Assembly (NCBI RefSeq): GCF_027744825.2
Contig: NC_071343.1
Coordinates: 17,948,866-18,012,865, forward strand
Direction: 5' to 3'
DNA from: Synchiropus splendidus
Taxonomy: Eukaryota > Chordata > Actinopteri > Syngnathiformes > Callionymidae
Length of the DNA stretch: 64,000 nt
Shown one piece after another: positions 57,369-60,300 of the stretch (position 1 is the stretch's first letter; each line of letters opens with the position of its first letter). Below the pieces are notes generated by a model that worked only from the letters and a program-made list of their open reading frames with translations, was not told where the DNA came from and ran no database searches. Both the position numbers and the translations under genes were made by a program.

Positions 57369-60300
57369 TTTTTTAACACCCCTTGGGCTACTACCTAGGT
57401 CTGTGTGGGCTACTTGGTTAGGGTTATGGGCACCATGTTGGTGACCCCTGGTTTAGTACATTTATTGAAGCCAGACAAGGGCGAACTCTTTGTGGGGTCA
57501 AAGGTCAGCAGTTTTTTTACATGCATCATTGCGACTCACACCGCAGAATCTTCCTGCACGTCTGACTCTGGAGGCAGCTGGGACATCTCCAGCTCCTCCA
57601 CAGGTGCTGAGAGCTGCTCTCTCCTCCTGTTCCTCCACACCATCACCGCCAAAACAGCAACAACACACAGCATCACGACACTGAGCAGCACGGACCTCAG
57701 CACTTGCTGATCAAACTCTAGCTCTCTGAACATCACCAGCGTCTCAGTTCTGAACACACAGTGATCACGGCTCGTCCCCACACACCAGAACTGTCCAGAG
57801 TCCAGCAGAGAGACGTTGGTGATCACCAGACTCCTGTTAGAGAGATACATGTTGTGCAGTCGTTGATAGTCCAGTACACGTAAGACTCGTCCGCCGGTTC
57901 TGTTGGACCTCATGAACCAGTCGACGTCATCGCTCTGATGCCAGTCACCACAGTGAAGAGCAAGCTTCTCCCCACCACTGAAGAGCTCCACAGCGTGAGA
58001 CTCAGGCTCAGGACACACGTACAGGAAGTAATCTTCACTACCAGAAACACTTAGGTCACAGACGTATACACCGGAGTGGGCCAACGTCAGTGATGGAAGC
58101 ATGAGAGTGGTGTTCAGACTCAGATCATCAGACAGTGAATTAAACATCCACCACGTGTGTTTTTGTTTTAAGCTGCCGTCTGAGCAGTTCAGCTCCAGAC
58201 TCTCTCCCACCAAGCGGAGGATAAACTGTGGCGGTACGTAAACAGAGAAGCGACTGTGGAGCTCACAGCTGAGCTGCTCCTTCTCCAGACAGTAGTAGGA
58301 GACACGAGCAGAACGTTTGTCGACGGTGAGCTGAAGAGAAGATCTGTTCCTCACCAGCTGGTGTTTGTACACGGAACGTGTCCCATCGTCGATCAAAACT
58401 AAATCATCACTCAATGCATAGTAGCTCCAATAGGCCCAGTGAACTCTCTGGTTTGGTCCCACGATGTCACACACCAGCTCCACTGTCTGTCTAGAATTTG
58501 GGTACAAAGGCTCATGATCTACCATCGTCTGATCGTCACAGACGAGAAGAATGGTGGTCTTCTCTGACATCAGCTTGCCCTGAGTCCAGCACTGCTCGTG
58601 GTATGGACCCGAGTGGGAAACATTCAGAGGGTTTGTCTCATAATAGGAGCCCGAAGAGTTCCACAGGAGTTCCGTGCCGTCAGTGGTCCACCTCCAGATC
58701 GAACAGAAGTCAGCTGTGGCGTCCAGGTCGAAGCGATGAAAACTCCCCGGCCTCCTGATGACCTCAGCGTGGATACTAGAGATGAGCAGCAGCAGCAGCA
58801 GCAGCAGTTGTGTAGACATGTTGTCGTCTGTGAGTGTCTAGAGTCTGACTGCGGCTTCATGGTCTCAATCGCAACACCATCAGCAGCTTCGTACTGACGG
58901 TTCGATGAGGCGGATGCTGCATGTTACTTCCTGTTAGCATTATCAGGTGTGAAGAGTGTCGGGGAATGAACATCAGTGAGCACAAGTGAATACATGACAT
59001 GAAGACATGCGATATATTAGTTTAATTTTCTTAGTTTTCAGTCCTGCATCATCCAGGTCATATGACCTCTTGGCACCAGACAGCCGGCTCCATCCTCTCC
59101 CACTGGTTCAGTTGCGTTCTGCTTGCTCAGAGCTGAGCAGAGTGTCCGGTGTAGGTGGGGATGTTCATAAGTTCATATTTTAGTGCAGCGAGGAACAAGA
59201 ACAGGAGACAGAAAATATATTTTAGAAGCTTCATTGAAAAAATGAGCACCAGCACTTTGCCTCTTGGGCAGACTAGCGGATGTGGTGGACTGGTTGGGGT
59301 TTCAACCCTGCGACCAAACTGTTCTCTCGGGCCAGAAGATGCAGAAGCAGGGGGGTTTGAAGTGCTCTGACAGCTGGGCCGATGGCTTCTTCATCTCCAG
59401 CTTGTCCAAATTTTTGAGCGAATCGTCCGTGATGGGAGCACCAATCAGGTTCTACTTCTCCGACTCCTTCAGCCCCGTCTTGCTGTGCCGCCATCTGCGA
59501 GAGCATGCAAATCCTTGCTCCATTCACAGAAGCTGCCAGCGCCATCTTCTGAAAAGCAGCGCAAGTGATTTGGGAACGTTGCAGCTCCTCACCTTCCATC
59601 GTCTCTCTTTCAAAGAGGATCCATCGCTGCAGCCATTATCGGCCAGGGCTTGAACGTGCATGGGACATGCGTAGGCCCTGTCCAGAAACACAGCCGTGGT
59701 CTGGTTTTTCTTGTAGGGGAGGCGCTGTTTAGAGCCTGTCCAAAAGGTGGTGGAAGGCGAGAGACATAAACCCAAGTTGTCACCCAGCAGTGGGAGACTA
59801 TTGGTGCAGTCCACACCAGCAATGGTGGAGTAAGCTCCATAACCTCTAGGGGGCACCTTGATGGACAAGGACATACATGAAAGTCAAGAAGTCCTCCTCC
59901 CAGGTTACTATACAACAGAGAGAGGTACTCCTAGAATCTTCATTGTAGCTTGGAACAGGTTCAGCATCTCGTCCATGGGGTACGCTCTCTTGGCGGGCCC
60001 CGTTGGTGTATGCTTGAACCGAGAAGGTGGTCTCCTCATTGTCCTCTGGGAACACAAAAAGATGAACCTTGTGTTTGTAGAAGTGATGGTCGTCCTCCTC
60101 AATCGCCTCGGCCCAAAACAGCTTCGCTGGAGCATGTTCAGCTGCTGACTGAGGAGGCTAGTCGCTGGAAAGGACGGTGACACCCAACACAAAATATTCC
60201 GCAAAAAATGTTGCGCAGATCTGTAGCGAACCGTTGTGGAGACAGGCGTGAGACGTTAAAATGATCTGGGGTGTTGATGGAGCAGGTAGCCGGTGACCAC

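Follow-up and report, generated by a model that had tools for sequence, protein, structure and literature searches.

A dispersed family of single-exon, four-Ig membrane proteins in Synchiropus splendidus, probably germline-encoded surface recognition receptors

In this work, we present an analysis of a 64-kb stretch of DNA from Synchiropus splendidus (hereafter the window) and of the gene family to which one of its open reading frames belongs. The intact 1284-bp frame that an earlier note had reported there was recovered as 427 codons on the minus strand (copy L001, Table 1). The plus-strand reading of the same region contains many stops, and from base composition an open run this long would be expected by chance in about 3e-8 of such windows. 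The frame lies, as the note had it, within an intron of a pcbp gene (55512-61100) transcribed from the same strand, with minus-strand exons on both sides; compared with the PDB, the upstream exon gives poly(rC)-binding protein 2 with E 1.6e-23. The poly(A) signal noted close past the stop is also present, 69 bases after the stop codon. Soon past this signal, at 57320-57455, the 3' flank leaves the family pattern; a further stretch that resembles a repeat (CAGGGGTCACCAACATGGTGCCC) is found there together with a long run of TA.

Table 1. Features of the nested gene and its host gene, in window positions
Feature	Position	Strand	Basis or remark
Copy L001: ORF without introns for a type I membrane protein of 427 aa with four Ig domains	57536..58819	-	
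Predicted signal peptide, residues 1-18	58766..58819	-	by eye
Ig domain 1, residues 19-98	58526..58765	-	cysteines 39/77/94; strands in AlphaFold2 model
Ig domain 2, residues 99-195	58235..58525	-	highest omega in recent cluster (8.7)
Ig domain 3, residues 196-271	58007..58234	-	outward C, F, G residues vary in recent cluster
Ig domain 4, residues 272-366	57722..58006	-	V-type by fold
Predicted transmembrane helix, residues about 371-396	57632..57709	-	by eye and model
Cytoplasmic tail, 31 residues	57539..57631	-	family consensus PVEELEMSQLSPESDxQEExPV; without tyrosine motifs
AATAAA poly(A) signal	57461..57466	-	sequence
Upstream block conserved in the family, containing GATA-like and ETS-like (AACAGGAAGT) sites	58917..58955	-	family alignment
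Host pcbp exon upstream of nested ORF	61101..61259 (mapped part)	-	PDB match
Host pcbp exon downstream of nested ORF	55400..55511 (far end below 55400)	-	by eye

The signal peptide, transmembrane helix and tail described earlier were all recognised (leader and helix by eye and from the model), and the three Ig cysteine pairs counted there had to be corrected to four domains with four pairs, 39-77, 117-177, 212-254 and 290-346, the pairing being taken from spacing. Each domain has one further conserved cysteine, and all 12 cysteines are kept in 58 of the 62 intact copies of the family. AlphaFold2 gives four beta-strand-rich stretches with a mean pLDDT of 83 (structure alignments took 58 rows and 49 rows). 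The ectodomain looks like a doubled two-Ig module, because domains 1-2 align with domains 3-4 over 146 columns (hhalign probability 94.7%, E 6e-8); it carries on average 9.5 N-glycosylation sequons (62 intact copies). Neither ITIM nor ITAM nor ITSM was found in any of the 62 tails, a tyrosine of any kind is present in two of them, and a charged residue in the membrane segment, near its cytoplasmic end, in six copies. Classical paired-receptor signalling is unlikely, because the tails are devoid of these motifs and tyrosines and charged membrane residues are few. The tail, with its acidic motif EE[LMIQ]E in 55/62 copies, may serve sorting or a novel interaction.

Membership of a lineage-specific intronless receptor family, one of the two readings offered earlier, is strongly supported, with at least 122 loci and no relatives of other species among the protein candidates scored. 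These distinct loci, on 17 contigs, were counted from the match tables of the window protein and of protein P0002, merging matches within 2 kb and including short remnants. The window protein alone has at least 99 matches in its own genome, where the best 98 of 230 candidates were scored; 67 of these matches are nearly full-length and have one open exon. We examined 71 copies at 70 loci, about 44-64% identical to the window protein: 62 have a full frame by our criterion, a few with changed C-termini, and nine are broken or have no start. All 62 full copies are single open frames, and in none is each Ig domain a separate exon. Three genome searches gave no intron-bearing parent among the best 98 of 230, 142 of 279 and 99 of 223 candidates; one ancient retroposition of the family founder is possible.

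Among the candidates scored from the protein collection there were two family members, P0001 and P0002, both annotated as Synchiropus splendidus; that so few are present may be due to missing transcript support. P0001 is encoded at 100% over 424 residues on contig C7. P0002 maps to C1 with residues 46-270 at 100% and 1-47 at 98%, and the two pieces flank an open stretch of about 460 bases, close to whose ends are GT and AG; the database model omits most of domains 1-2. Both matches make S. splendidus, the mandarinfish, very probably the source of this genome. Its locus is L057 (C1:33.31 Mb), where the database name 'tyrosine-protein kinase-like otk' is misleading. A partial family match was also seen at C4:1798148-1799023 inside a 1,979-residue open frame, and about 300 bp 3' of copy L052 there is a kelch-type coding exon (by eye), so that L052 too may have a host gene, around it or next to it. 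At 71.6 Mb, C1 greatly exceeds the remaining contigs listed, the second of which has 43 Mb. Of the 122 loci 27 are on C1, many of them towards its two ends and some around 33 Mb. It is possible that C1 is the product of a chromosome fusion; dragonet X1X2-Y systems are mentioned in PMC9631949.

No relatives outside S. splendidus were detected among 5.8 billion proteins by one single-sequence and two profile searches, which scored the best 5,778, 7,997 and 7,995 candidates and may miss distant relatives of other length or wording. The next protein after P0001 and P0002, a 763-aa EukProt entry, was rejected as a relative (E 0.35). The family is probably present in dragonets generally and is so far seen only in this species. 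In the PDB, the best match of the single sequence is FcepsilonRI-alpha over domains 3-4, a weak one (E 1.4e-4), and the family profile matches CEACAM, DSCAM and contactin better than FcR-like domains. Fold matches include pIgR and LILRB3, and in a second search GPVI; identity in fold and PDB matches is about 10-24%, and Sidekick, contactin and other IgSF proteins also match. Naming a receptor family from structure was therefore given up, as only generic IgSF proteins are among the fold matches listed. V domains of pIgR/CD300-like proteins each have a second conserved disulphide; the mandarinfish domains have three conserved cysteines each and pIgR is among the top fold matches. One of 15 family members matches the adenovirus E3 CR1 Ig family with E 2e-4.

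Conservation among the copies begins about 190 bp upstream of the start codon and fades out 30-60 bp beyond AATAAA. The profile was made from 53 of the 71 copies upstream (14 flank-sharing and four without a start left out) and from 49, full frames only, downstream. In the block at about -140 to -110 (TCTTCACACCTGATAAAGCTAACAGGAAGTAGCATGCAG) majority-base frequencies are 0.75-0.88, and at the coding end 0.79-0.85. GGAAGT occurs at -160 to -60 in 31/52 copies, compared with 9/388 control windows. The block, with sites which we take to be GATA-like and ETS-like, is a probable promoter of the copies' own, and its retention across the family fits one of the two options named earlier, that the nested gene needs one. 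The same-strand position in an intron needs no special explanation, because the copies carry their own upstream block and occur in many places.

Recent copying took place at the DNA level, because the stretches that copies have in common across chromosomes reach outside the transcript: 3,663 bp for L007-L020, 2,965 bp for L035-L007 and 1,677 bp for L029-L007. For L035-L007 (C17 and C1) the shared DNA continues past the poly(A) site. A run of at least 10 A within 250 bases of the stop was found in one of 71 copies, L070 (18 A at +133). The retrogene reading offered earlier is thus not supported for the window copy or for recent copies, with A-runs near absent and shared DNA past the poly(A) site, and retroposition of each recent copy was rejected on the shared DNA beyond the transcript and the near lack of poly(A) tracts. 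Among the 22 pairs compared, L052-L065, L067-L069, L040-L042 and L054-L068 have only a sharp-edged unit or the coding part in common; the unit is 1,562 bp at 97% in L052-L065, with both edges in microsatellite, and 1,429 bp at 95% in L067-L069. No target-site duplication was visible by eye in L052-L065 or L067-L069.

L005, L010, L012, L019, L030, L044, L052 and other copies adjoin a repeat, here called R, which is about 240 bp long, rich in CA at its ends and bordered by inverted termini (GTGGGGACC/GGTCCTCAC). It is abundant genome-wide (best 40 of 6,217 first-look candidates scored) and was not found in the 64-kb window at E 0.01, in a search that left out 14 of the 71 copies. Of 54 copies with distinct flanks, 25 have R no more than 300 bp away on the 3' side and 17 no more than 320 bp away on the 5' side, where about 2-4 are expected from distant flanks, and it is in the gene's orientation in 24/25 and 16/17 cases, respectively; R further off leans the same way (22/29). 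Nine of the 54 copies have R on both sides and 21, the window copy included, on neither. CA runs were counted 3' of 16/54 copies and 5' of 8/52, compared with 10/388 control windows, an enrichment that comes perhaps partly from R ending in CA. The R, GGAAGT and CA counts left out 17 of the 71 copies as flank-sharing or broken, and the GGAAGT and CA counts on the 5' side two more without a start. Inheritance of R with the gene is favoured by its position and orientation only: R copies 3' of genes have a similarity of 0.731 to one another and of 0.713 to R further off, too small a difference. A single R target split by the gene is not supported, as most two-sided copies carry two long, overlapping R pieces.

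Exchange of ectodomains was seen in one copy, L040 (C1:70.74 Mb); L042 and L063b are close by, all three genes falling in a stretch of about 0.45 Mb. Compared with L063b, L040 shows 99% identity in the 600 bp upstream, 58-77% over +150 to +750 of the coding sequence, and 98-100% from the coding end onwards until 200-odd bases past it. Over that same interval it is 97-99% identical to L042, except at +300 to +449, where identity is 73% to L042 and 58% to L063b; the upstream region of L042 cannot be aligned with that of L040 (27-40%). Most of domains 1-3 of L040 thus came from an L042-like gene, with the promoter region, start and tail unchanged, and part of domain 2 either from elsewhere or by fast change. 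By this mosaic pattern gene conversion swaps ectodomains, as seen in L040. L052 and L065 are the reverse case, their bodies being 96-100% identical and their 5' flanks unrelated (35-43%); the 5' flank of L065 matches that of L059 (81-90%).

Selection was read mainly from a recently duplicated group on C4 (1.58-2.25 Mb) and C1 (3.2 Mb), the recent cluster. Upstream flanks of 11 of its copies diverge by 0-2.9%, L011 set aside with a 5' flank of other origin than the rest. Downstream flanks diverge by 0-4.6% except in L028, L034 and L036, which are partly of other origin because their 3' flanks are 30-34% different from those of other members. Against this low upstream divergence, dN among the 11 copies is mostly 0.04-0.08. 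In nine representatives synonymous sites are about 2% different and non-synonymous sites about 6.5%, and the maximum likelihood omega is 4.19 (lnL -3574.0 vs -3605.6 at omega 1, a difference of 31.6 log units, with an unchanged tree and the best among five values of kappa). These nine were drawn from the 12 intact cluster copies, leaving out the near-identical L008, L009 and L036 as well as broken copies. For domains 1, 2, 3 and 4 omega is 3.1, 8.7, 3.0 and 3.5. Counting gives a dN/dS of 3.1 overall, 3.0 for the ectodomain and 0.6 for the tail, the last from very few changes, with dN of 0.006 in the tail vs 0.077 in the ectodomain. No changes, silent or replacement, occur in the leader, and the stalk and membrane part have a few replacement and no silent ones; constraint on these short parts cannot be read separately because the changes are so few.

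A three-copy cluster on C5 has an omega of 1.86, and outside the most recent clusters counting gives 0.7-0.95, as expected when old pairs are averaged, and also of relaxed genes. The earlier note had named dN/dS near 1, together with no expression, as evidence against function; the ratio departs from 1 the other way, to about 4, in the recent cluster, and 0.7-0.95 arises when older copies are averaged. Exact omega values are rough, since pairs are not independent and gene conversion occurs and can distort codon models. We nevertheless regard the excess of replacement changes in the recent cluster as secure, because the effect is large and is borne out by the flank comparison.

Of the 427 residues, 101 vary within the recent cluster. 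Those of domain 3 alternate along the strands (222, 224, 226; 251, 253, 255; 261, 263, 265, 267), so that in strands C, F and G 10 of 11 outward residues vary vs none of 10 inward ones. Strands C and F were anchored on W223 and C254, and the anchor of strand G was set after the pattern had been seen; with C and F alone the counts are 6/6 and 0/6. Over the anchored C and F strands of all domains the effect is modest (p 0.02), the alternation being weak in domain 4 and not clear in domains 1 and 2. On the predicted structure, the varying residues of domain 3 would form one sheet face made of strands C-F-G, a usual binding face of V-like domains. Sites varying in the recent cluster are also variable, more often than expected, in six further clusters (p 0.005 to 3e-9; seven groups chosen from tree and map), and part of this recurrence may reflect simply exposed residues.

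The window copy stands alone on a long branch of 0.21 changes per site (quick tree) and keeps an intact frame, tail, upstream block and AATAAA. It was probably kept by selection through most of its history, because neutral simulation at 0.21 substitutions per site left 1 of 2,000 frames stop-free, a generous figure as indels were ignored.

From these results we propose a family of single-exon type I receptors with a leader, two tandem two-Ig modules, a membrane helix and a short tyrosine-less tail. The genes would be spread by duplication, at the DNA level, of a unit at least about 1.5 kb long and equipped with a promoter-like block and a poly(A) signal; because the unit is self-contained in this way, a copy could work wherever it landed, another gene's intron included. 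Gene conversion between copies exchanges ectodomains, and selection preserves the frame and the cysteines and goes on altering exposed residues, most clearly on the C-F-G face of domain 3. It is likely, in our judgement, that these are germline-encoded surface proteins for recognition under arms-race selection. As receptors or decoys they would track fast-changing ligands, most likely those of pathogens. The immune role is probable by analogy and from the promoter-like sites, and expression in blood cells is a guess from the ETS/GATA-like block.

The main rival to this account keeps the same surface family and has it diversified by sexual conflict, fertilisation or self/non-self recognition, with expression in gonad or skin and not in leukocytes. 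Reproductive proteins would be just as apt to show diversifying selection on an exposed Ig face, and the tail has no signalling motif; the ETS/GATA-like block, however, hints weakly at blood cells, and copy numbers like this one are more usual in pathogen-facing families, so that we hold gamete or self recognition to be rather unlikely. That the founder was captured from a large DNA virus with Ig-like glycoproteins would agree with the intronless frame, the absence of a parent among the candidates scored, the adenovirus E3 CR1 match and the presence of viral Ig proteins, fish iridovirus ones included, among the fold matches. These fold matches are nevertheless generic, with 7-16% identity and low TM-scores; Ig proteins of hosts are matched too, and no viral relative appeared among the best 7,995 candidates scored from the 5.8 billion proteins; such an origin is extremely improbable.

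Two further alternatives concern the copying. If every copy had been reverse-transcribed from a family mRNA, some being later kept by selection, one would understand why no full copy has an intron, why copies are dispersed over 17 contigs, why the unit conserved in distant copies (about -190 to just past AATAAA) is roughly mRNA-sized, and why the four pairs listed above share a unit or coding part only; the A-run of L070 points the same way. Yet 70 of 71 copies have no such run, the upstream block travels with the copies, the DNA common to copies on different chromosomes extends past both ends, and no target-site duplication was seen by eye at L052/L065 or L067/L069. For recent copies this account is largely contradicted, and as a general one we find it very unlikely. 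A frame spread as a passenger of R, with host function secondary or absent, would account for the excess of nearly always gene-oriented R next to the copies on both sides. It is at odds with an omega of about 4, which indicates selection on the protein, with R similarity values that do not support inheritance with the gene, with the same lean of distant R and with the 21/54 copies, the window's included, that have no R at either end; we consider it highly improbable.

The reading of the family as germline-encoded recognition receptors can be carried further, to a dragonet repertoire of antibody-like kind. It would consist of more than 60 dispersed, independently promoted single-exon receptors on one scaffold, their C-F-G faces hypervariable under extreme positive selection, whole ectodomains swapped by conversion between copies with microsatellites and a repeat at their borders, and signalling by the tail independent of tyrosine. 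We put this extended form forward tentatively, as less likely than the general one. The family offers a natural system for studying how, with neither splicing nor somatic recombination involved, a recognition face becomes diverse through point changes and through ectodomain swapping between intronless copies. Almost none of the repertoire turned up in the protein collection, so that it escapes ordinary comparative work. Seahorses and pipefishes, of the same order as the mandarinfish, are reported to have remodelled canonical immunity (Roth et al. 2020).

To our knowledge, no other large variable IgSF receptor family of vertebrates is single-exon and spread over 17 contigs, with no homologues detected outside one fish and a whole-gene omega near 4 among recent copies, and in the open-access literature searched we recognised no description of a single-exon, dispersed, tyrosine-less family of this size under such selection. 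The ectodomain dN/dS above 1 in recent copies is as expected of a diversifying immune receptor family. Of the marks of a processed retrogene family, the poly(A) tract was not found, the A-run of L070 excepted, target-site duplications were not seen by eye in two pairs, and recent copies have DNA outside the transcript in common. Paired receptors (FcR, FCRL, XFL, LITR) have a separate exon per Ig domain and an ITIM/ITAM tail or a charged transmembrane residue, whereas the mandarinfish copies are single open frames (62/62) and do not share this signalling layout. With the ectodomains of FcepsilonRI, FcgammaRIII, LILR and pIgR there is a weak match or fold likeness only, and no close family was identified. 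NITRs consist of a V domain with a J-like motif and an I domain, often with an ITIM; the four-Ig plan and the absence of an ITIM speak against membership there. The kind itself, large, species-specific and diversifying IgSF receptors, has precedents in XFL and the CHIR of birds. NITR and LITR are further precedents.

The sea urchin Sp185/333 genes are two-exon and clustered, have GA repeats and encode another type of protein. PMC5103432 describes them as fast-diversified immune genes bounded by short tandem repeats, the proposed drivers of duplication, deletion and conversion; the CA runs or R next to the mandarinfish copies recall this arrangement and by analogy might be a cause of copying, with CA runs on part of the copies only. 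Medaka finTRIM is, according to PMC2657112, a large teleost family under positive selection, with 47 of 55 genes single-exon and read there as retrotransposed; those are TRIM/B30.2 proteins mainly on two chromosomes, whereas the mandarinfish genes encode dispersed Ig surface proteins and are copied at the DNA level. The echinoderm kirrelL is an intronless IgSF gene for which a retrotransposition origin is raised as a possibility in PMC8903837; unlike the present large family it is described there as one developmental effector gene that cell fusion requires. The Xenopus FcR-like family (XFL; PMC2413239) has at least 75 genes, evolves by birth-and-death and is proposed to have had ancestral contact with pathogens. 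The likeness lies in a large species-specific family of IgSF receptors; XFL genes differ in being multi-exon with tyrosine motifs or FcR-gamma-binding transmembrane segments (PMC2413239), whereas the mandarinfish family is single-exon, dispersed and tyrosine-less.
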